Source: Diabrotica undecimpunctata (taxonomy: Eukaryota; Arthropoda; Insecta; Coleoptera; Chrysomelidae). From it: a DNA stretch of 64,000 bases. The stretch lies in assembly GCF_040954645.1 (NCBI RefSeq), contig NC_092811.1, positions 84,639,063-84,703,062 of the forward strand. Direction: 5' to 3'. A model generated the notes under the pieces. The model made no database searches. It was not told where the DNA came from and saw only the letters and a program-made list of their open reading frames with translations. Within the stretch, counting starts at the first letter, position 1. Each line of letters opens with the position of its first letter. A program made the position numbers and the translations under genes. Shown here one piece after another: positions 32,073-47,787 of the stretch.

Positions 32073-34290
32073 ACACTTGCGTCTGTATCTAAGATAAACT
32101 CTCCTTCTGGCAGTGGATATCCTAAAATTGATGCTGTGATAAACGCTTTTTCAAGGTCTCAAAGGCATTTTGGCAGTCTGTATCCCAGCAGTAATCTCTT
32201 GCCTCCTCTGTAAGTCGCGTTAATGGCTTAGCGATATCTGCAAACTTCTTAATAAACCTCCGGTAGAAAGTACATAGTCCAAGAAAACTTCATACTTGAT
32301 GTTTGTCCGTTGGTTCTGGCCATTCCTTAATGGAATAGATTTTTCCCTTATCCACTGCCACTCCTTCTTTACTGACTATATGGCCCAGATAATTGACTTT
32401 ACCTTGAAATAGCTGGCACTTCTTGGTCAGCCAGTCTTAACATCAATTGGGCAGCTTTAAGTCGATTAAAAACGTTTTCTAAATTCTTCAGATGATCTTC
32501 AAATGTCTCCCACAAGACGATTATGTCATCTAGATAAACCAGGCATGTTTTCCAAGATAACCCTCTCAACACATTTTCCAGAAGCCTCTCAAATGTCGCA
32601 GGAGCATTACAGAGACCAAATGGCATAACCTTGAATTGCCACAATCCAGATCCTGTGGTGAAGGCTGTCTTCTCTTTATCTACTGGGTCCATTTCTACCT
32701 GCCAGTATCCAGACTTCAAATCCAAAGTAGAAAACAATTTACTTCCAGCCAATGTGTCCAATGTGTCGTCGATCCGAGGCAGAGAATAACTATCTTTCTT
32801 GGTAACGTTGTTTAGCAAACGGTAATCCACACAGAACCTCGTCGTTCCGTCTTTCTTTTTAACCAGGACCACCGCAGAGACCCATGGGCTCGTAGAAGGT
32901 TCTATCACCCCGTCTTTCTTCATTTCCTGAACAATCGTTTCAGCTTCCTCTCTTTTCGCCTGTGGTAATCGTCGAGCTGTTTGACGAATTGGCTTAGCAT
33001 TACCAGTATCAATTTTATGCTTAACAACGGTAGTTCTTCCCGTCTTTCCTCCTTTCAGTGGGAAAGTATCACGATACTGCCGAAGAAATTCCCTTAATTT
33101 CCTTTTCTCCATCTGATTTAGAGACTGTCCCACAACTGCAACCATTTGGTCGAATTTAACGTTGGAATTATCAGATGTTGTCGCCTGACGGATTATGAAT
33201 GTCACAGATATACAAGTTCCTGCTTTTGTCTTTTTCTCGATGATCACTGGGTAGTCATTGACATTGATAAGTCTCACAGGAATTTCTTTAGCCGAAGTCA
33301 CCAATTCTTTTCCAATTATGATTCCACAGCCAACCTCGTCGTCATGGTTCCAAGGCTCCATCATAACAGGTGTCCCTTCGTCCACCATTCCCTGTAGCCG
33401 CGCTACTATGATCTTTTCACTTCTCGCAGGCACGACTGTATCTTCTTTAATTGCTGCTTGCACAGTGTTGCCATCATGTGGATGAAGAAATACCTCCTTG
33501 TTGCCAACTTTGATTACCTTACTTCTTAAAATCCAATTGGAATCCATGCATATTCATTATGTCCATTCCTAATATAACATTCTCTTCGATGTCAGCAACT
33601 ATAACAGTATGCACGAACTTTTCTGCTCCAATTACTAATTGTACCTGGATTTCTCCATAAATGTTGGCATTTTCACCTGTAGCGGTCCGAAGTCGCAACC
33701 TCGTTGGTAACAGTCTGCAACGTCCAACAACGTATGCCTTTTACCATTTATTTCTCCATCTACATATATACTATCTTCACGACATTTCAAAGAAGCTAAT
33801 AGTATGAGAGGGTCTTTGGAAAAGTTCCTGGTCGAAGCTGCCCCCCTAAGGCCGACTCGTTCTAGTTTTCCTGATGGTGAGTTTCTTGACCAGCATCATC
33901 AACCAGTATCTTGTGACAAGCTAATCGCAGTGTTCTCTGCATTTCATGATCACGAAGACCATCAATAAACGTTTGAACGGCCAATTTTTCCATCATGTCT
34001 TCGGGAGGTGTTGGATAAGCATATCGTACTAATCTGGCAATATCTACCTCATATTCTTGAAGAGCCTCATCTTTCTTCTGTCTTTGATTTTTAAGCTGCG
34101 ACTGATATACATGCTCCAAATATTCGTGGCCATATCGCTTATTTAACCTCTTCTTCAGTTGTTCGAAATCATCCGTCTTCTTTACGGCTATGGTCTGAAG
34201 CACATCTAAGACATCTCGAAGAGCGATAGTCAGGTTTACAGCATTTTCTTTTTCAGACCATCATGTAGCTCTTATTAACCTTCAAAATAT

Positions 34291-34294
<4 letters not shown>
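32073..34294 (-). pseudogene. Gypsy gag-pol fragment, copy A
   Basis: Minus strand. 33862-34203 is the capsid-type Gag (FEQLKKRLNKRYG, LQEYEVDIARLVRYAYP). A deletion relative to copy B (the equivalent of about 43228-43390) removes the rest of Gag. 32399-33547 covers the post-protease linker and most of the RT (LVKKKDGTTRFCVDYR, YLDDIIV). The RNase H start reaches DTDAS, where the copy stops abruptly at 32073. It shares with copy B a frameshift after YLDD, a TGA in the connection region and the same 5' boundary, so both descend from one defective source. There are no LTRs. Confidence 0.85.

Positions 34295-34365
<71 letters not shown>
34293..34365. repeat. (TA)n microsatellite
   Basis: Pure TA, directly abutting the 5' end of Gypsy copy A on one side and the tail of a SINE on the other. 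Confidence 0.95.
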
Positions 34366-34880: not shown

Positions 34881-36095
34881 ATAATCATATCAAAAGGGTC
34901 TTATTTACCTATCTTTGCTCCTATTGGTCCAACCGTACCGTACGGGGCCTAAAATGATAATATTTAACGGACAGAATACGATGATGGAGACAAATCAAGT
35001 ATGGCGACATGTAATAATACCGTAAACTGGTAGCGATAAAACTGAGTAACGCACAGAGGTGTGTGGCATAATACGTAACAGGATTTAACGAATAGGATAC
35101 GATTACATACATCTGTATACATACGTTCACTTTTAGACAGTCAACTTCTCTACTTTTGATAAACGCAAAGAAGCCCCAACGTTCACTGTTAGACGTTCAC
35201 TGCATACATCCCCACTGTGAAAACTAAACAAGCCAGCGTCTCAAACGTGGAATGAGCCGTAGAACGTGATATATTGCCGTAAAAATATATGATGGCCATA
35301 GACGGTTCTATAATATCCAGAAAATTTTTTCCCTGATCATATTTAAAAAACATACGCTGTATATACTAACCCATGCTTTGCAAATATGGATTACGATCAA
35401 GTTATGTACAACTTCCTTTGTAAAGGTATAATTAATTAGTATAAATAAGTTAAAAGGTATAATAATAATTAATTAATAAAGTATAATCAATCAAATAATC
35501 CAGGTTGTTTCAATTTTATACTTTTTTATTGAATAGTGAAGATATACATAAGTACTTATCATTCTTAATTCAATACAAAAATACAGAATGTTTATTCTTT
35601 TGCTATATAATCTACTTTTCCTAAAAATTTTTAGTAACTTTTTGTTCTTTACAAAGTAATAAAAGTTAGAATAGCTTTGTTTTAAAATTTTCAGTTTATT
35701 TTTCTGTCTGAGCTCGTTCCCTTACGAGGGTAAATAAATGGATGGCGCCCATTACTTTATTTTTATTTTAAAGATAATATATTGAAACCTATTGCATATA
35801 AAGTTTGAAAGAACCACACCCAAATCTTTTCCGACACGAGCGATGGGCCTAGAATAATTATGTAGGTAATGCTATACAGGGTGCACTTAGAAAGCTGTAC
35901 CAATTGAATTTTTTTGATAAATCAATACATTCTCATGTTGGTGAATAGTGTGCCTACAAATATGTAAAGAAGCTTATGATATTGGGCATTAAATTATTAT
36001 GTTGTATAAACAATTAATTGAAACTGAATACAGTATACAAATTAACTTAAACTTAGCACAGCAAAAGACCATGTGTACATGTATATAAAAAGTAT
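34881..36095. other. AT-rich DNA, no gene
   Basis: Nothing recognisable apart from short open frames without domains. The last bases, GTAT at 36092-36095, are the target duplication of the Gypsy element. Confidence 0.4.
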
Positions 36096-36366
36096 TGTAA
36101 CGAAATAGCCCATCTCCGATACGTCATAATTCTTAGAAGGACGAATCTAGAAAACGTAAGAATCGGCATGTCAATAGCGCCCGTCCTTCTGACGGGAGAC
36201 AATTAGAGGTGGGACAACGCCAGAATGTTCTCGAAAAGTAACTTTATTATATATATGTAACGTTGTTAGGAGTGAGTTTAGTCGTTAAGATACTACCGAA
36301 CTGTAAAGTTATAAATAAATATATGTATATAAATTCGAACCGCTCGTTTTATTTAATCGCGCTACA
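36096..36366 (+). repeat. Gypsy 5' LTR (271 bp)
   Basis: TGTAACG...GCTACA. It contains a TATATATATG region and AATAAATATATG near the 3' end, as expected for promoter and polyadenylation signals. It carries a small inverted pair CCGTCCTTCTGACGGG. Confidence 0.92.
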
Positions 36367-36525
36367 GTGGTGTTACGGTGTGAGTAAAGAAAATATAAAT
36401 TCAACAGTTGTTGAAAAAGACTTTTGGACTTTTGAAAAATATTGTTCGTCGGGAACATCCGCGTAGTTTGGCAGTGATCTTTGTACGAAAGAACATTTAA
36501 AAAGTACGTGTGTGCCTGACCAAAA

Positions 36526-37854
36526 ATGCTGCTAGTACAACTTTCAGTAAAACAGTTGCGTGAGCAACTGGAAGAACGCGATGAAGACTGCAGCGGGTCC
36601 AAGAAGATACTCCAAGAACGACTAAAGACTGTTCTTAACAAGAATGGAGATGATCCAGAGACATTCCATTTTCAGTCAGCAGAAGAAGCAGTTTTAATGA
36701 AGATAGAAGAAACTTCTAAAAAAACTGATGATCAATTCGAGACTGTTTCCAAAAGATTCGATGAAACGTCTCAAATGATAGAAGAATCTTCTAAAAAAAA
36801 TGATGATACATTCGAGACTGTTTCCAAAAGATTCGATGAAACGTCTCAAATGATTGAAGAATCTTCTCGAAAGAATGATGAAAGATTTAATGAAACGTCT
36901 CAAACTATTAAAGAAATAGCTAGACAAAACGACGAGAAATTCGAAAATATGTCTAGAAGATTCGACGAAGTATGTAATCAAAACAATGACAAATTTGAAG
37001 AAGTCACAAGAACATTCGATAACATACAGAAAAATGTAAACAACGTAGAAGAGAAGATCAAACAATTAGAGAGCATGATAACTAATACAAAAGTGCTACC
37101 ACCAGTTAATACAATAGCCTTAGATCCGGTAGTGAAAGAAGAATCACCTAGAGACGAAACAACACATAATATGAGATTCAAATTGCCACCATTTGATGGA
37201 AAGTCTTCTTGGTCCATATACCTTAGACAATTTGAAGCTATTGCGACAGCCAATCATTGGACAGAACAAGAAAATGCTGTTTCCTTGACTGCTGCTTTAC
37301 GAGGTGATGCTGCAGATATCCTAAGATCGATTCCTAAGGGTCAAGAAAAATGTTACCAGACCTTGTTCACTCGACTAGACAAACGTTACGGAGATGCCCA
37401 TCTACAACAAGTCTACAAGGCGCAACTAAGAAGTAGAATTCAACGAGCAAGTGAAAATTTACAAGAGTTTGAAGCAGATGTTGCTCGTATAGTGCGGTTG
37501 GCTTATCCGGAAGTACCAGACAACATTTTGGAAGAAATTGCTGTAGATACCTTCGTCAATGGGTTAAAAGAAAGTGAATTACAGAAAGCTTTACGACTAG
37601 CAAGACCAAAAGTTCTGGATGAAGCGCTCGCTATTGCCTTGGAACATGAAACAGCTAGTCAAACTTCACGGAGCCATCGAGTAAGAACCATCGAAGAAGG
37701 CGACGAACCAAACGATGAACGTCTGGAAGAAATGGTACGAAAAGTAGTTCGTAACACGATGCCGAAGAGACGCGAGCCCAGATGTTGGAATTGCGGTGAC
37801 GTAGGTCATATTCGCCGTAATTGCAAGAAAATGATACAACAGTCGGAAAACTAG
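36526..37854 (+). CDS. Gypsy Gag with SAP-like N-terminus, coiled coil and zinc knuckle
   Basis: 442 residues from a real ATG. Residues about 4-36 (QLSVKQLREQLEERDEDCSG...LQERL) fit a SAP-type DNA-binding motif. Residues about 65-190 are a heptad-rich coiled coil made of 25-residue repeats (75 bp at DNA level, ETVSKRFDETSQMIEESS), then decaying versions. The capsid-type Gag domain follows (about 220-370, MRFKLPPFDGKSSWSIYLRQ). A single CCHC knuckle CWNCGDVGHIRRNC lies near the C-terminus (37783-37824). The frame is open to TAG at 37852. Pol lies in a different frame. Confidence 0.88.
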   Translation: MLLVQLSVKQLREQLEERDEDCSGSKKILQERLKTVLNKNGDDPETFHFQSAEEAVLMKIEETSKKTDDQFETVSKRFDETSQMIEESSKKNDDTFETVSKRFDETSQMIEESSRKNDERFNETSQTIKEIARQNDEKFENMSRRFDEVCNQNNDKFEEVTRTFDNIQKNVNNVEEKIKQLESMITNTKVLPPVNTIALDPVVKEESPRDETTHNMRFKLPPFDGKSSWSIYLRQFEAIATANHWTEQENAVSLTAALRGDAADILRSIPKGQEKCYQTLFTRLDKRYGDAHLQQVYKAQLRSRIQRASENLQEFEADVARIVRLAYPEVPDNILEEIAVDTFVNGLKESELQKALRLARPKVLDEALAIALEHETASQTSRSHRVRTIEEGDEPNDERLEEMVRKVVRNTMPKRREPRCWNCGDVGHIRRNCKKMIQQSEN

Positions 37855-37945
37855 AACGGGTCGACAACAAGGGGCAACTGCCGACCTCGAGAAACACAGC
37901 CCCCATAGTAACTGTGAACAGTACGTCCTCAGGTGGAAATCATAG

Positions 37946-40900
37946 CTGTACATAGAGGGTCGTATCAATAATAAATGTAGATCGTTTTTGGTAGATACAG
38001 GTGCAACGAGAACTATTGCACGGCCAGAAGTAGTACGAGGCCATCTTAAATTATCGCCTGCAACAGTAAAGCTTAGAACAGCAACTGGTGAGATAATTAA
38101 TACATATGGCGAGGCTAATATGTCAGTATCCATTGGCCAGACCACAGTGAAACATACAGTATTAATTGCAGAGATCTCCGATGAGTTCATATTGGGGATG
38201 GATTTACTAAGGAAAGTTGGGGCTGTATTGAATGTCAAAGATGGAGTTCTCGAGATCAGTGGTGAAGAGTTGCCGTTTCATGAAGACAAAGAAGATGTTA
38301 TCAGCTTAATAACTACTTGTGACGTAACAATACCCGGTAATAGTGAGAAAATTTTGATGACCAGACCTGATGGTTACTGCCGAGAGGGAAGTTTAAGGAT
38401 GGTCGAAGATGTGAATAATGCCGAGTTCCTAACGGCAAAAGCTTTGGTGAGAATTCGAGATGTCGTTCCTGTAAGAGTTATTAATTTAAAGGGAACTGCT
38501 ATTAAGTTAAGTAAAAGAACTTTGATCGGACAGTGTGTTCCCGTGGCTTCGATTTGTTCCATGAATACTAATGAGAAACCGTCGAAATCTAAGTATCCAA
38601 AGGAGCTTGTTGAGACGATGATTAAAACGTGCCAAGATCTTGATGATGAACGAACTAAAAAAGTGAAGTCTATGCTGATAGAATTTCAAGATGTTTTTGC
38701 CATGGATAAGAAGGATAATGGCAAAACAAGCATAGTAAAGCATAAAATTAATACCGGAGACGCTCAGCCAATCAGACAACAACCTAGACGACTTCCATTT
38801 TCGAAAAGAGATGAAGCCGAAGACATCATCAAAGATATGAACAAACAAGGGGTAATTGAACCATCAAACAGTCCATGGACATCACCAGTAGTCCTAGTAA
38901 AGAAGAAAGATGGTTCAACACGTTTTTGTATTGACTACCGACAGCTCAATGCAGTAACTAAAAAAGATAGTTATCCTTTGCCCAGAATAGACGATACCTT
39001 GGATACACTTTCTGGTTCTCGTTGGTTCTCCACACTCGATCTGAAAAGTGGATATTGGCAAGTAGACATGGAGCCAGCTGATCGTGAAAAAACCGCATTC
39101 TCGATAGGATCAGGGCTTTGGCAGTTCACAGTTATGCCCTTTGGTTTATGTAATGCCCCGGCCACATTTGAAAGATTAATGGATGCAGTTTTAAGAGGTC
39201 TAACATGGAAAACATGCCTGGTTTATTTGGATGATGTAATTGTAGTTGGAAGATCCTTCGATGAACATGCCAATAATCTAACAGAAGTCTTTCAACGATT
39301 GCGGGCAGCGAATCTGAAGTTGAGTCCGAAGAAATGTCACTTGTTTCGACGAGAAGTGAAGTACTTGGGACATATTGTAGCAAGTAATGGTGTAACAGCT
39401 GATCCTGAAAAACTTGCAGCAATTAAGGATTGGCCAGTACCAAGAGATAAACACGAAATTAGAAGTTTTCTTGGCCTATGTACATATTACCGCCGTTTTG
39501 TCAAAGGATTTGCCAATATCTCCAAGCCATTAACAAAGTTGACAGAAGAAGGCAAAGAATATACATGGAGCGAAGAGTGTCAAAGAGCTTTTGAACACTT
39601 ACAAATGGCTCTGATCAGCGCACCGATTTTAAGCTACCCTAGACAGGCAGGAAAATTTGTGTTGGACACCGATGCAAGCAACAGTGCAATAGGAGCTGTT
39701 CTTTCCCAAATCCAAGATGGGCAGGAGAAAGTCATCGCTTACTTTAGCAAAGTCTTGTCAAAACCAGAAAGAAACTATTGCGTTACCAGAAGAGAATTGC
39801 TAGGCGTAGTGAAGGCTTGTGAGCATTTCCATAAATACTTGTATGGCAGAAAGTTTCTTCTTCGCACGGATCACGCTGCTCTAAAATGGCTCCTACAATT
39901 TCGTAATCCAGAGGGTCAGATGGCCAGATGGTTAGAACGATTACAAGAATATGATTACGAGATCGAACACAGGGCTGGCAGAGTTCATTCAAATGCTGAT
40001 GCCCTTTCGAGACGGCCGTGCAGTGCAAATTGTAATCACTGTCTTAAATTAGAAGAACGACTTTGCCCCGTGAGACGAACCACCGTCATTAATGAGCAAT
40101 GGCAGCCTCAACAGCTACAAGACGCTCAAGCAGATGATCCATGTATAAAAAGAGTATTGGATTGGATGCGTCGAAGTGAGAGACCTTCTTGGCAAGACAT
40201 TAGTGCATGTAGTCCAGAAGTCAAGTGTTACTGGAGCCAATGGAATTGCCTAGTGCTGAAAGATGATCTTCTGTATAGAACCTTTGAGAACGATGATGGT
40301 ACAGAAACTAAGCTTCAGTTAATTGTACCTAAAAGTAAAGTGTCAGAAGCATTGCGTCAGTTGCATGACGGTGCATCAGGTGGACACTTTGGTATCACGA
40401 AGACTCTGCAAAAGGTTCGAGAACGGTTCTATTGGGTGAACTGTAAAGATGATGTAAGAAGATGGTGCCGGAAATGTGAACTGTGTGCAACCAGTAATGG
40501 TCCAGCTGGTAAAAAGAGGGCACCCATGAGACAGTACAATGTTGGTAGTCCTATGGAAAGAGTAGCAATCGACATTGCAGGTCCACTTCCAGAGACAAAT
40601 GATGGGAATAAATATATCCTGGTAGCCATGGATTATTTTACGAAATGGACTGAGGCTTATGCGATACCAAATCAAGAAGCTGCTACCGTTGCAGAGGTAC
40701 TTGTTAAAGAATTCTTTAGCCGATTTGGTGTTCCCTTGGAGATCCACTCCGACCAAGGGCGAAACTTCGAGTCAACCCTTTTCCAAAACGTTTGTAAATT
40801 GATTGGTGTCAATAAGACCAGAACGACACCCCTGCATCCTCAATCAGACGGAATGGTCGAGAGAATGAACCGAACAATGGGTAAACACCTATCCAAGGTT

Positions 40901-41224
40901 GTATCAGAACATCAAAGAGATTGGGACCAGCATATTCATTTATTCCTAATGGCCTACCGCTCGGCCGTGAATGAAACTACAGGCCAGACTCCAACCTGCC
41001 TGATGTTAGGTCGTGAAGTTCGTTTGCCCTGCGACCTAGAGTTTGGCTGCAGACCTTCCGAAGAACATGTTGCAAGCGAAGATTATGTCGACCGCCTGAA
41101 GTTAAGAATGAACAACATTCATGAACTTGCCCGACAACACATCCAGATAGCCAGTGACAGAATGAAAGATCAATATGATTCTCGATGTAAGAGTGAACGC
41201 TATGAAGTAGGTGATCTTGTTTAG
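37946..41224 (+). CDS. Gypsy Pol: protease, reverse transcriptase, RNase H, integrase
   Basis: The open frame from 37946 has no Met and must be entered by frameshifting or was cut by an indel. The protease core is FLVDTGATRT (37985). The RT has VVLVKKKDGSTRFCIDYR and YLDD at 39223-39234. RNase H starts VLDTDASNSAIGAVL. The integrase has an HHCC finger (LHDGASGGHFG...CRKCELC) and the catalytic core: Asp in VAIDIAGPLPE, Asp in HSDQGRNFE, Glu in DGMVERMNRT. It stops at TAG (41222-41224), inside the conserved stretch before GPY/F where relatives have Trp. The reading frame continues beyond it (next entry). Confidence 0.9.
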   Translation: MYIEGRINNKCRSFLVDTGATRTIARPEVVRGHLKLSPATVKLRTATGEIINTYGEANMSVSIGQTTVKHTVLIAEISDEFILGMDLLRKVGAVLNVKDGVLEISGEELPFHEDKEDVISLITTCDVTIPGNSEKILMTRPDGYCREGSLRMVEDVNNAEFLTAKALVRIRDVVPVRVINLKGTAIKLSKRTLIGQCVPVASICSMNTNEKPSKSKYPKELVETMIKTCQDLDDERTKKVKSMLIEFQDVFAMDKKDNGKTSIVKHKINTGDAQPIRQQPRRLPFSKRDEAEDIIKDMNKQGVIEPSNSPWTSPVVLVKKKDGSTRFCIDYRQLNAVTKKDSYPLPRIDDTLDTLSGSRWFSTLDLKSGYWQVDMEPADREKTAFSIGSGLWQFTVMPFGLCNAPATFERLMDAVLRGLTWKTCLVYLDDVIVVGRSFDEHANNLTEVFQRLRAANLKLSPKKCHLFRREVKYLGHIVASNGVTADPEKLAAIKDWPVPRDKHEIRSFLGLCTYYRRFVKGFANISKPLTKLTEEGKEYTWSEECQRAFEHLQMALISAPILSYPRQAGKFVLDTDASNSAIGAVLSQIQDGQEKVIAYFSKVLSKPERNYCVTRRELLGVVKACEHFHKYLYGRKFLLRTDHAALKWLLQFRNPEGQMARWLERLQEYDYEIEHRAGRVHSNADALSRRPCSANCNHCLKLEERLCPVRRTTVINEQWQPQQLQDAQADDPCIKRVLDWMRRSERPSWQDISACSPEVKCYWSQWNCLVLKDDLLYRTFENDDGTETKLQLIVPKSKVSEALRQLHDGASGGHFGITKTLQKVRERFYWVNCKDDVRRWCRKCELCATSNGPAGKKRAPMRQYNVGSPMERVAIDIAGPLPETNDGNKYILVAMDYFTKWTEAYAIPNQEAATVAEVLVKEFFSRFGVPLEIHSDQGRNFESTLFQNVCKLIGVNKTRTTPLHPQSDGMVERMNRTMGKHLSKVVSEHQRDWDQHIHLFLMAYRSAVNETTGQTPTCLMLGREVRLPCDLEFGCRPSEEHVASEDYVDRLKLRMNNIHELARQHIQIASDRMKDQYDSRCKSERYEVGDLV

Positions 41225-42064
41225 CTTTATAATCCACAACATCGTCGAGGCTTGTCTTCCAAACTGCAAAGACAATGGGAAGGTCCATATGAAATTAAAA
41301 AGAAAATAAATGACGTAATATTCCGAATTAAGAAGTTGCCGAAAGGTAAACCAAAAGTAGTTCACATAAATCGTCTTGCACCATATGCTGGCTCAAATGA
41401 AACAGAAGAAGCACGAACCCTTCAACATGAGATCAAAGATGACCGGCGACCAAGCTTTAATGAATTTATGTCAAATTACGCAGAGAGAAAGAGAGCTAGA
41501 TTCGGCGTGACCACAGAAGTTCAGCAGGATCTTTTTAGTGTTCCGCATAACGTCTCTCTAGCCCGCTGTGTTGCCCAAGATCTTGAGATGACTAACGGAA
41601 TCTCATCCGTATTTTATAAGAAATTCGGTCGTTTGGACGAGTTAAAAAACCAGCAACCTAAAGTTGGAAGAGTACTGAGATTAGAAGATGGTTCTCGATC
41701 TTTGCTGTATATGGTGACCAGGAAGTCGTATAAAGACAGGGCAAGCTACGAGGATATATGGCGTGCTCTAACTAATTTGAAGAGAATTGTGTGCAATTAC
41801 GACATCAAGAATTTGGCCTTACCCAAGATAGGCCATGCACTAGATAATCTGGACTGGAAGATTGTCAGAAGCATGCTTGAAGTGATCTTCCGAGAAACCG
41901 GCGTACGAATTACTGTGTGTTGCATTAACCCGATGAGATCGTATCCTTCAAAGTCAGTAGACTGTTATTTCTTTCTAAAGGGTTCATGCAGAGCTGGAGA
42001 GTCCTGTAGATTCCGCCATCCTGTGCCTACATATAGAGTTGCTGATCGGGACGATCAGATTTAA
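41225..42064 (+). CDS. Pol C-terminus: GPY/F module, TARG1-like macrodomain, CCCH zinc finger
   Basis: In frame with Pol after the TAG. First comes the GPY/F module (QRQWEGPYEIKKK, PKVVHINRLAPY). Then, at about 41510-41920, comes a domain that aligns along its length with the macrodomain of TARG1/OARD1. It has QDLFSVP (Asp at 41528-41530, matching the adenine-contacting Asp), SLARCVAQDLEMTNGIS (substrate loop), VFYKKFG, TRKSYKDRASYED, and LPKIGHALDNLDW with the catalytic-type Asp at 41843-41845. The TARG1 catalytic Lys position aligns to Arg (41720-41722) with Lys next to it. A CCCH finger (C-x7-C-x5-C-x3-H, 41963-42019) ends the protein. Macrodomains bind or remove ADP-ribose; a role in countering host ADP-ribosylation is inference. 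Confidence 0.85.
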   Translation, partial: LYNPQHRRGLSSKLQRQWEGPYEIKKKINDVIFRIKKLPKGKPKVVHINRLAPYAGSNETEEARTLQHEIKDDRRPSFNEFMSNYAERKRARFGVTTEVQQDLFSVPHNVSLARCVAQDLEMTNGISSVFYKKFGRLDELKNQQPKVGRVLRLEDGSRSLLYMVTRKSYKDRASYEDIWRALTNLKRIVCNYDIKNLALPKIGHALDNLDWKIVRSMLEVIFRETGVRITVCCINPMRSYPSKSVDCYFFLKGSCRAGESCRFRHPVPTYRVADRDDQI

Positions 42065-42075
42065 GAGGGGAGCAG

Positions 42076-42343
42076 TGTAACGAAATAGCCCATCTCCGAT
42101 ACGTCATAATTCTTAGGACGAATCTAGAAAACGTAAGAATCAGCATGTCAATAGCGCCCGTCCTTCGGACGGGAGACAATTAGAGGTGGGACAACGCCAG
42201 AATGTTCTCGAAAAGTAACTTTATTATATATATGTAACGTTGTTAGGAGTGAGTTTAGTCGTTAAGATACTACCGAACTGTAAAGTTATAAATAAATATA
42301 TGTATATAAATTCGAACCGCTCGTTTTATTTAATCGCGCTACA
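42076..42343 (+). repeat. Gypsy 3' LTR (268 bp)
   Basis: Almost identical to 36096-36366, with a 3-bp deletion at CTTAGGACG. Followed by the GTAT duplication. Confidence 0.92.
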
Positions 42344-42365
42344 GTATGTAAAAAAGTTTATGTAT

Positions 42366-42832: not shown

Positions 42833-45800
42833 TTATATTTTGAAGGTTAATAAGAGCTACATGATGGTCTGAAAAAGAAAATGCTGTAAACCTGACTATC
42901 GCTCTTCGAGGAGATGTCTTAGATGTGCTTCAGACCATAGCCGTAAAGAAGACGGATGATTTCGAACAACTGAAGAAGAGGTTAAATAAGCGATATGGCC
43001 ACGAATATTTGGAGCATGTATATCAGTCGCAGCTTAAAAATCAAAGACAGAAGAAAGATGAATCTCTTCAAGAATATGAGGTAGATATTGCCAGATTAGT
43101 ACGATATGCTTATCCAACAGCTCCCGAAGACATGATGGAAAAATTGGCCGTTCAAACGTTTATTGATGGTCTTCGTGATCATGAAATGCAGAGAACACTA
43201 CGATTAGCTCGTCACAAGACGCTGGTTGATGTCTTATCCGCCGCCCTCGAATACGAGTCAGCTACGCAGGCCTCTGGCGGGTACAGTAAAGTTAGGACTG
43301 TAAAAGACAAAGGAGATGAAGATAAACTTAAGCAGCTCGTTAATATGATGAAAAGTATGACATACAAGAAAACTAAGACCATACAATCAAGAAACTCACC
43401 ATCAGGAAAACTAGAACGAGTCGGCCTTAGGGGGGCAGCTTCGACCAGGAACTTTTCCAAAGACCCTCTCATACTAATAGCTTCTTTGAAATGTCGTGAA
43501 AATAGTGTATATGTAGATGGAGAAATAAATGGTAAAAGGCATACGTTGTTGGTGGATACCGGAGCGACCAGAATCATTATACGTCTGACAGTTATAAACA
43601 GCCGTAAGAAACTTACCAACGAGGTTGCGACTTCGGACCGCTACAGGTGAAAATGCCAACATTTATGGAGAAATCCAGGTACAATTAGTAATTGGAGCAG
43701 AAAAGTTCGTGCATACTGTTATAGTTGCTGACATCGAAGAGAATGTTATATTAGGAATGGACATAATGAATATGCATGGATTCCAATTGGATTTTAAGAA
43801 GTAAGGTAATCAAAGTTGGCAACAAGGAGGTATTTCTTCATCCACATGATGGCAACACTGTGCAAGCAGCAATTAAAGAAGATACAGTCGTGCCTGCGAG
43901 AAGTGAAAAGATCATAGTAGCGCGGCTACAGGGAATGGTGGACGAAGGGACACCTGTTATGATGGAGCCTTGGAACCATGACGACGAGGTTGGCTGTGGA
44001 ATCATAATTGGAAAAGAATTGGTGACTTCGGCTAAAGAAATTCCTGTGAGACTTATCAATGTCAATGACTACCCAGTGATAGTCGAGAAAAAGACAAAAG
44101 CAGGAACTTGTATATCTGTGACATTCATAATCCGTCAGGCGACAACATCTGATAATTCCAACGTTAAATTCGACCAAATGGTTGCAGTTGCGGGACAGTC
44201 TCTAAATCAGATGGAGAAAAGGAAATTAAGGGAATTTCTTCATCAGTATCGTGATATTCTCCTACCGAAAGGAGGAAAGACGGGAAGAACTACCGTTGTT
44301 AAGCATAAAATTGATACTGGTAATGCTAAGCCAATTCGTCAAACAGCTCGACGATTACCACAGGCGAAAAGAGAGGAAACTGAAACGATTGTTCAGGAAA
44401 TGAAGAAAGACGGGGTGATAGAACCTTATACGAGCCCATGGGGCCTCTCCGGTAGTCCTGGTTAAAAAGAAAGACGGAACGACGAGGTTCTGTGTGGATT
44501 ACCGTTTGCTAAACAACGTTACCAAGAAAGATAGTTATTCTCTGCCTTGGATCGACGACACATTGGACACATTGGCTGGAAGTAAATTGTTTTCTACTTT
44601 GGATTTGAAGTCTGGATACTGGCAGGTAGAAATGGACCCAGTAGATAAAGAGAAGACAGCCTTCACCACAGGATCTGGATTGTGGCAATTCAAGGTTACG
44701 CCATTTGGTCTCTGTAATGCTCCTGCGACATTTGAGAGGCTTCTGGAAAATGTGTTGAGAGGGTTATCTTGGAAAACATGCCTGGTTTATCTAGATGACA
44801 TAATCGTCTTGTGGGAGATATTTGAAGATCATCTGAAGAATTTAGAAAACGTTTTTAATCGACTTAAAGCTGCCCAATTGTTGTTAAGACTGGCTGACCA
44901 AGAATTGCCAGCTATTTCAAGGTAAAGTCAATTATCTGGGTCATATAGTCAGCAAAGAAGGAGTGGCCGTGGATAAGGGAAAAATCTATTCCATTAAGGA
45001 ATGGCCAGAACCAACGGACAAACATCAAGTATGAAGTTTTCTTGGAGTATGTACTTACTACCGGAGGTTTATTAAGAAGTTTGCAGATATCGCTAAGCCA
45101 TTAACGCGACTTACAGAGGAGGCAAGAGATTACCGCTGGGATACAGACTGCCAAAATGCCTTTGAGACCTTGAAAAAGCATTTATCACAGCATCAATTTT
45201 AGGATATCCACTGCCAGAACGAGAGTTTATCATAGATACAGACGCAAGTAATGTGGGAATCGGAGGAGTGCTATCTCAGATACAAGGAGGACAGGAACGA
45301 GTCCTTGGATATTTTAGTAAAGTTCTTTCAAAACCTGAGCGGAATTATTGCGTCACGAGAAGAGAACTTCTAGCAGTAGTGAAATCAGTAGAGCACTTTT
45401 ACCAATACCTCTACGGAAGGAAGTTTTTAATCCGAACCGACCATGCCGGCCTTAAGTGGTTGTTGCAGTTTAAGAATCCAGAGGGTCAGATAGCCAGATG
45501 GATCGAACGACTTCAAGAATACGATTTCAAGATTGAGCACCGGGCCGGAGTTAGCCACAGAAACGCTGATTCTCTTTCCAGAAGGCCATGCCCAGCAGAG
45601 TGTTCCTACTGCAACAAAACGGAATCCAAGGAAGCAGCAGTGCTAAGAACAATGATGGTCAACGACGATTGGACACCTACCAAGAGAGGGATCCAGTTGT
45701 ACAGAAAATTCGAAAATGGAAAGAGGAAAACCGTCGACCACCTTGGCAAGAAATATCAAACCTGTGCTCAGTAGTTACGACGTATTGGACCCAGTGGGAC

Positions 45801-46705
45801 TCATTTATCATGGAAGATAGCTTGCTCAAACGAGTCCTGGCAAATGATGACGGTTCAGAGAAGAGAAGACAGTTGGTGATCCCAAAGAGCAGAATAGCCA
45901 TAGTACTTCGTCAGTTACACGACAGTCCATCAGGAGGGCATTTTGGTGTAAAGAAGACCCTTCTGCGAATTCGGGAACGGTTTTATTGGATGAACAGTTC
46001 CGACGACGTAAAACACTGGTATAAGAAATGTACTATTTGTGCTACGAGTAACGGGCCTTACCGAAAAAGGAGAGCTCCTATGAGACAATATAATGTTGGA
46101 AGCCCGTTTTAAAGAATAGCTTTGGACATTGCTGGGCCATTTCCAGAAAGTGAAAATGGAGGCAAGTACATGTTGGTAGTAATGGATTACTTTACTAAGT
46201 GGGTCGAGATTTACGTACTTCCAGACCAGAAGGCCGCCACCATTGCAGATAAGTTGATCCAAGAATATATTAGCCGATTTGGAGTGCCTTTGGAGATCCA
46301 TAGTGACCAAGGCAGGAAATTCGAAAGCGATCTATTTCAAGGAATATGTGATAGACTAGGCATGAAGAAAACAAGAACTACAGCATATCATCCGCAATCG
46401 GATGGTATGGTAGAACGGATGAATAGGACAGTTGGCAAGTATTTGACAAAGGTGGTGTCCGATCATCAGCGAGACTGGGACCAATATCTTCCGTTACCAA
46501 GAAACGGTACAATACACAAGCCGAAAAGGGTTGCTTTAAGAAGAACGACCAAGTCTGGCTCTATAATCCCAAAAAGCGAAAAGGTTGTTCTCCCAAGTTG
46601 CAGCAGTTTTGGGAAGTCCATACCTCATTATGGAGAAGATCAACGATATCATCTACCGAATAAGCAAGATTTCGAGGGAAAAGCCGATGATAGTACACCA
46701 TAACC
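42831..46705 (+). pseudogene. Gypsy gag-pol fragment, copy B
   Basis: A longer relative of copy A, in broken frames. Gag is at 42925-43650 (same domain, continuing into the protease VDTGATR). The linker and RT start lie at 43776-44465, the RT with YLDD at 44494-44925, RNase H at 45253-45774 (the DTDAS motif lies just upstream at about 45237), the integrase finger at 45588-46112, and the integrase core at 46122-46703 (DIAGPFPE, HSDQGRKFE, DGMVERMNRT). A TAA at 46110 interrupts the integrase. The C-terminal part is deleted, and no macrodomain or LTR is present. Its 5' end and several lesions are identical to those of copy A. Confidence 0.85.
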
Positions 46706-46769
46706 AATAATTGTTTTATTAAAATTCTTTCTGATTCGTTGTGTATCAGCAAGTAAAAATATAAAGTAT

Positions 46770-47787
46770 ACACATTTGTTTAAAACTACATTGGTTTCAT
46801 TTATAACAAATATGTGAAAATAATGGGTTAAAAAATCGAGAGTTACAACTATAAATATTTATCGAAATCGAAATGAAAATTTTAAATTACGCAAAATCTA
46901 TCACTCCTAGTTGTAAAACATCCATGGACCATTCGAAAGTGGAAAATTTTTTTAATATAATAATTCATTAATATACAGGGTGTTCCATTTAAAATATATT
47001 ACACATTGAGTAATCCAATAATAAAACTGCAAATTGTGAACACCCTGTAAATAAATGTTTAATAATTAATCATGAAATACATTCAACCAATATCCAACTA
47101 TTTAGAGGTATAACAAAGTTTATTAGAATTTCTTAATTAAGTTAGGAATGAGTAAAAAAAAAATTTAAGTAAAAATCCTTTATAAAAGGTATATAAATTT
47201 AAAACCCAAACGGGCTATGTCATGAATACAAAACGTTTTTGGAAACCATGTTCCATCATCAGTGTCTAGGTGTACATGTTTTGAGCCACTAAATATCAGG
47301 GTAAAAACCCGTTAAAATTTATCTGTTACAATTTAGTTTACATTATTTGGTATTATATTTTAAGATGTTAGAGTTACCAGTGGATATGATAACATGGCGA
47401 CGTATGACTCCATATGAAGTTGTTGGTCCTGAGACGAAGTGTCTACGAGGACTTGATGATAGCAACATTTTAGGAATGAGTCTTCGTTTAAAGCTTTACG
47501 TTTTAAGAATATTCCACATAACTCAGAACACTCTGTACATAAATATAGGAAAGTCTTATGAAACTATACCTTAATTTTTGCTGACAATTAAAAAATGCAA
47601 TAAAATATAGGGCGTCCCATAAGAAAAAATATAACTTTGATACGCCGCACTTTGGGACGCCCTTTATATTTCAAAATAATTTTAAAATGTAGTCCTTATC
47701 AACCTTCAAAATATAAATTTAATTTTTTTTTTAAATCTTTTACCGTTTCGCTGTAATCTTCCGTCTCGTTAGTGGTGACTCACCCTG

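Follow-up and report, generated by a model that had tools for sequence, protein, structure and literature searches.

A TARG1/OARD1-type macrodomain fused behind the integrase in an insect clade of Ty3/Gypsy retrotransposons

Chromoviruses are Gypsy retrotransposons with a chromodomain at the integrase C-terminus, and the macrodomains of alphavirus nsP3 and coronavirus Mac1 represent another macrodomain class than the one described here. The window analyzed in this study, a stretch of 64,000 nucleotides (NC_092811.1, positions 84,639,063 to 84,703,062) on a chromosome-size contig of the 1.74-Gb genome of the beetle Diabrotica undecimpunctata, contains a Ty3/Gypsy element in which the integrase GPY/F module is followed by a macrodomain of the TARG1/OARD1 type and a CCCH zinc finger. 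Domains of this type strip ADP-ribose tags off proteins and nucleic acids in animals. In human TARG1, Lys84 and residue 125 form the catalytic dyad, and K84A TARG1 fails to rescue from DNA ADP-ribosylation; the enzyme reverses thymidine-linked DNA ADP-ribosylation and acts on ADP-ribose phosphoesters at nucleic-acid termini, according to the accessible parts of two reports (PMC7050489, PMC8501950). Fish retroviral sequences occasionally have macro-domain reading frames (Basta et al. 2009, as cited in the accessible part of PMC4977317). Macrodomain capture by retroelements is thus already known; what seems undescribed is a TARG1-type fusion behind the integrase in a clade of insect Gypsy elements, and a literature search limited to open-licence papers turned up none that reports OARD1 or any other macrodomain in Gypsy Pol. 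We favor, with some reservation, the reading that an insect Ty3/Gypsy clade captured a host TARG1/OARD1-type domain behind GPY/F, has inherited it with Pol and handles host ADP-ribosylation with it.

Among solved structures, TARG1 is nearest to the window domain in both sequence and fold. An earlier note on this DNA, made from the letters alone, had described a Gypsy element with a TARG1/OARD1-like macrodomain and a CCCH finger behind the integrase, and this description was confirmed by sequence, by fold, and by a Pfam match of the finger. The profile check proposed in the same note gave a divided result: the finger exceeded the PF00642 gathering score (25.5 versus 20.5 bits), whereas the macrodomain scored 15.9 bits against Pfam Macro (PF01661), under the gathering score of 22 bits. 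The scores of relatives against Macro were all below this cut-off as well (P0030, 20.7; P0195, 21.0; P0193, 18.7), and P0007 had no Pfam match for Macro at E 0.01. The element macrodomain, which falls under the Pfam cut-off, is therefore an annotation trap. The CCCH motif (C-x7/8-C-x5-C-x3-H) is present in 18/31 element rows, some rows being cut short, and is absent from P0016 and from a five-row integrase subclade (P0018, P0022, P0027, P0029, and P0030; 100/83). Kadipiro virus is an insect-borne reovirus, and its VP8 (A0A8E0KJF2; 28% identity), the top viral structural match (Foldseek, BFVD), hints at a TARG1-like macrodomain.

A DNA search of the genome with the macrodomain segment returned at least 40 places, including the window, at 99–100% identity. 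A search with the human OARD1 protein returned at least 150 rows. Among the matches listed, one is a host gene and 149 are rows from elements; the latter score up to 108.3 bits, and 41 of the 149 sit in open frames of at least 1,400 residues. Sibling copies were selected on integrase DNA to avoid selecting by the macrodomain itself, and this set (the best 30 of 40 scored copies, window included) leans towards close, young copies. The whole macrodomain segment is carried by all 30, in a gap-free open frame in 25; the earlier note had raised the possibility that siblings lack the segment, which all 29 other copies examined have. In eight of the 30 copies (L070, L080–L084, L087, and L097), the 3′ long terminal repeat (LTR) matches only partly (85–91%) and the macrodomain is the same, so that the domain spans LTR subfamilies with a common coding region; L098 has no adjoining 3′ LTR of the window type. 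Among 20 further copies from the segment DNA search, 13 have both full LTRs where expected, and in the other 7 no full 5′ LTR occupies the corresponding site. All 13 are flanked by a 4-bp target-site duplication, and the LTR pairs of 7 are mismatch-free over 261–271 aligned bases, which indicates recent movement. The duplications, the window counted, are TA-centered in 14/14 (GTAT, ATAT, ATAC, GTAC, and CTAG); the insertion target preference is palindromic and RTAY-like, with several sites in TA-rich sequence. In the copy of the window, a stop separates the integrase core from GPY/F, as might be expected of an assembly artefact or a one-off insertion beside a dead element. These explanations are refuted by the dozens to more than 100 copies on many contigs and by relatives in other species and data sources; copies and relatives rule out a chance read-through as well.

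The set of relatives comprised 124 listed proteins, including the best 120 of 1,208, and the macrodomain is present in 30 of the 124. In a maximum-likelihood integrase tree of 119 hits and the window (one of the 120 hits was omitted because its integrase span was too short), all 27 macrodomain rows lie inside one 31-row clade (100/100), and the nearest outgroup row, P0034 from a stick insect, has no macrodomain. The named hosts of macrodomain rows are Diabrotica, Exocentrus, Molorchus, Callosobruchus, Brassicogethes, and the leafhopper Macrosteles; macrodomain records labelled powdery mildew or Klebsiella are probably insect contamination. Integrase and macrodomain distances of 25 rows are correlated (Mantel r 0.63; 0/5,000 permutations), which indicates that both parts travel together. 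That the domain is common to related insect elements suggests that a host gene was taken up and is used to handle host ADP-ribose signals. Eight matches at 27–41% identity were found among viral contigs.

The acquisition of a host-type ADP-ribose gene by the element, as the earlier note had it, is supported by sequence, fold, copy number, clade-wide distribution, and purifying selection (below). The interpretation given there thus holds in part; the functions that it suggested (countering PARP-mediated silencing, acting at DNA breaks, tethering) and the binding of RNA or ADP-ribose by the finger are candidates. A tree against insect OARD1 had also been proposed there. In the second of 2 macrodomain trees, which includes nine bacterial outgroup relatives (drawn from 46 genome-contig loci, bacterial by title), the element macrodomains form one group (98/96) with the beetle’s own OARD1-like gene, and vertebrate and lancelet OARD1 fall outside it; this fits a single capture from an insect gene. 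The beetle gene (L049; G000:C3:100934209-100934598, minus strand) has one 760-codon open frame in which Lys84 and Asp125 are kept; it had no Pfam domain at E 0.01, and a long charged N-terminal part precedes its macrodomain. Because this long frame is separate and encodes no element domains, we infer that the gene is cellular. P0001, P0163, and P0195, gene models from Diabrotica and Macrosteles named “ADP-ribose glycohydrolase OARD1-like”, group with the element macrodomains and therefore appear to be retrotransposon fragments that were given host-gene names. The bootstrap was unsettled in both macrodomain trees; the first omits three truncated rows, and the second omits eight (four element rows that are divergent or damaged, two fragments from Diabrotica, and two animal rows that are partial or repeated). 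The position of the window beside P0025 in the tree with bacteria was not used, since this set is thinner and the position conflicts with the integrase tree and the first macrodomain tree.

Catalytic residues were counted in a 35-row census, in which P0163, P0193, P0195, and P0197 are regarded as elements solely by tree position and sequence. Among the element rows having the respective column, Asp20 is present in 34/34, Lys84 in 29/34, and Asp125 in 29/33; both Lys84 and Asp125 are kept in 27 of the 33 macrodomains having both columns. With these residues intact, most members should remove ester-linked or end-linked ADP-ribose. Loop position 41 is Ser/Thr in 30/35 element rows versus Gly in 20/20 cellular rows, and loop position 42 is Arg/Lys in 29/35 element rows. 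In the window, the Asp125 equivalent is kept (41843–41845) and the Lys84 position is occupied by Arg (41720–41722), just as the earlier note had read them. A pure targeting reader, which would steer the integrase to ADP-ribose-bearing chromatin in the manner of a chromodomain with hydrolysis being incidental, would account for the location directly behind GPY/F (the chromodomain position in chromoviruses), for the 5/34 rows in which the catalytic Lys is replaced while the domain stays, and for the conservation of the domain in Diabrotica despite Arg84. It is nevertheless an unlikely explanation, because both catalytic residues, kept in 27/33, would be needless for a pure reader; the RTAY-like insertion target says nothing on chromatin preference. 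CCCH fingers often bind RNA, and the finger adjoining the macrodomain would suit a role in the protection of intermediates, in which host-made ADP-ribose caps would be removed from cDNA or RNA ends, freeing these for reverse transcription and integration. The action of TARG1 on thymidine-linked DNA ADP-ribosylation and terminal phosphoesters, as given in the accessible text of PMC8501950 and PMC7050489, is in line with such a role, whereas the loss of the lysine in the Diabrotica family is not; we regard it as doubtful, if slightly less so than the pure reader.

The ratio of non-synonymous to synonymous polymorphism (pN/pS) was estimated with 95% intervals from the 30 copies chosen on integrase. 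The ratio is 0.30 (0.13–0.64) for the macrodomain and 0.09 (0.04–0.21) for the integrase piece used to choose the copies. Constraint on the macrodomain thus persists without the classic nucleophile, and in the window family purifying selection maintains the fold, the pocket residues Asp20 and Asp125, and the open frame. This estimate is preferred over an earlier one of 0.33 (0.19–0.59; 26 copies, 18 drawn by OARD1 likeness), because the earlier set was mostly drawn by OARD1 likeness.

In the capture reading that we favor, a host TARG1/OARD1-type domain would have been taken up once at the Pol C-terminus, directly behind the integrase GPY/F, and would since have been inherited with Pol, many clade members additionally carrying the CCCH finger. 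As part of Pol, the macrodomain would reach both the virus-like particle and the integration complex; Lys84-bearing members may strip Glu/Asp side chains or nucleic-acid ends of ADP-ribose, and the Diabrotica family would most likely bind ADP-ribose without classic hydrolysis. Host ADP-ribosylation would thereby be countered or exploited, the PARP marks being erased, masked, or docked upon. Candidate marks are PARP modification of the integrase or of cut-site chromatin, ADP-ribose attached to the ends of cDNA or RNA, and silencing marks. A more specific form, which we put forward only tentatively, is that the integrase brings a TARG1-type eraser cancelling PARP-type marks that silence or block the element, and that the repeated lysine losses, with the fold preserved, represent an eraser-to-reader shift in an arms race over ADP-ribose between hosts and retrotransposons. 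ADP-ribosylation is suspected of restraining retroelements through PARP-1 in flies (PMC7712786) and SIRT6/KAP1 in mammals (PMC4695847). According to the accessible parts of these reports, SIRT6 mono-ADP-ribosylates KAP1, leading to L1 silencing, and in Drosophila parp-1 mutants, five of the eight significantly changed mobile elements are up (three of the eight belong to the gypsy superfamily), together with ten more, nine of them gypsy, below the authors’ significance cuts.

Several points weigh against the favored reading: (i) Arg84 is found in 25/25 readable copies of the window’s family, the window included, so that classic TARG1 hydrolysis, judged from sequence, is unlikely in this Diabrotica family; (ii) the catalytic pair is lacking in 6/33 macrodomains (the window, P0001, and P0163, which are Diabrotica rows, and P0017, P0028, and P0033), which indicates that catalysis is not universally needed; (iii) pN/pS gives no clear signal for GPY/F and the linker (0.42; 0.16–1.44) and no clear constraint in the window family for the CCCH tail (0.70; 0.24–1.66); (iv) the macrodomain substitutions common to at least three copies are 6 non-synonymous and 7 synonymous, so that its constraint is moderate; (v) the macrodomain evolves approximately twice as fast as the integrase (mean distance 0.50 versus 0.25); (vi) 4/31 clade rows are without the macrodomain, P0009 and P0020 stopping after a short tail, P0021 being apparently deleted internally, and P0043 being a cut protein; and (vii) the tree against insect OARD1 bore out the joining of the elements with the beetle gene but not a firm element group, which in the tree without bacteria appears in only 62% of bootstrap trees, and the single-capture claim is limited by there being only one, long-branched insect host gene for rooting. 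In addition, serine-linked ADP-ribose, the main damage-induced form, is not known to be a TARG1 substrate. The other three of the eight elements fell in the parp-1 mutants, and the rise may be indirect according to the authors (accessible part of PMC7712786). Arg84, the faster evolution, and the four rows without the domain would also suit a passenger, that is, a harmless domain captured by chance and decaying slowly. This explanation is disfavored and quite improbable, given that the upper bound of the macrodomain pN/pS is 0.64, that 30/30 copies keep the domain, and that Asp20 is invariant despite the clade-wide divergence of the macrodomain.

The window element has paired TG...CA LTRs with a short duplication, and the Pol order of protease, reverse transcriptase (RT), RNase H, and integrase, with the integrase last (Pfam), is that of Ty3/Gypsy elements, the frame being stop-interrupted in this copy (Table 1). 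Downstream of the stop, 279 further open codons (41225–42061) encode GPY/F together with the macrodomain and the finger. The SAP domain at the Gag N-terminus scores 24.9 bits (cut-off 23.9), and 75-bp repeats that are 95% alike lie inside the Gag frame at 36702–36851. A second, decayed Gypsy lies at 42865–46800 (end approximate), with an RT approximately 70% similar at the DNA level; tblastn with four macrodomain queries found no macrodomain in it beyond chance-level pieces. The segment 42762–43128, at the gag start of this second element, is repeated inverted at 34000–34363 (99%).

Table 1. Features of the macrodomain-bearing element in the window (position 1 is the first nucleotide of the window).
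Feature	Position	Strand	Remark
Target-site duplication GTAT, left	36092–36095	.	flanks 5′ LTR
LTR retrotransposon (Ty3/Gypsy)	36096–42343	+	6,248 bp
5′ LTR, ends TGTAAC...GCTACA	36096–36366	+	271 bp
Gag open frame (stop to stop)	36520–37854	+	N-terminal SAP, internal repeats, Retrotrans_gag, CCHC knuckle
Pol frame	37946–41221	+	protease, RT, RNase H, H2C2, integrase core
In-frame TAG interrupting Pol	41222–41224	+	present in 1/30 copies examined (window only)
GPY/F (Integrase_p58_C) module	41225–41400, end approximate	+	45.5 bits, residues 20–53
TARG1/OARD1-type macrodomain	41513–41920	+	Asp20 equivalent at 41528
CCCH zinc finger, C-x7-C-x5-C-x3-H	41963–42019	+	PF00642 25.5 bits
Stop codon of macrodomain-CCCH frame	42062–42064	+	
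Purine-rich tract directly before 3′ LTR, probable polypurine tract	42063–42075	+	sequence
3′ LTR	42076–42343	+	268 bp, 98.2% identical to 5′ LTR
Target-site duplication GTAT, right	42344–42347	.	

To our knowledge, few retrotransposon counter-measures to ADP-ribosylation are known, and the question of such a counter-measure becomes testable with this family, which is abundant, has moved recently, and carries a conserved TARG1-type domain fused to its integrase machinery. The closest known system is TARG1/OARD1 (C6orf130) of the ALC1-like hydrolase class, from which the domain described here differs in being fused to a retrotransposon Pol. The MGAG loop of human TARG1 is replaced by an S-R-G-like loop in most element rows, and Lys84 of the human enzyme by Arg84 in the window family. 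Chromoviruses share with these elements a host-type reader domain behind GPY/F; their domain is a histone-methyl reader, in contrast to the macrodomain of an ADP-ribose enzyme class found here. The alphavirus and coronavirus macrodomains belong to positive-strand RNA viruses and are far less similar (12% identity for the match). The endogenous retroviruses of fish (Basta et al. 2009, as cited in PMC4977317) are likewise retroelements with a captured macro-domain gene. As described there, vertebrate endogenous retroviruses carry additional open reading frames, whereas the insect Gypsy elements carry the domain as a C-terminal extension of Pol.
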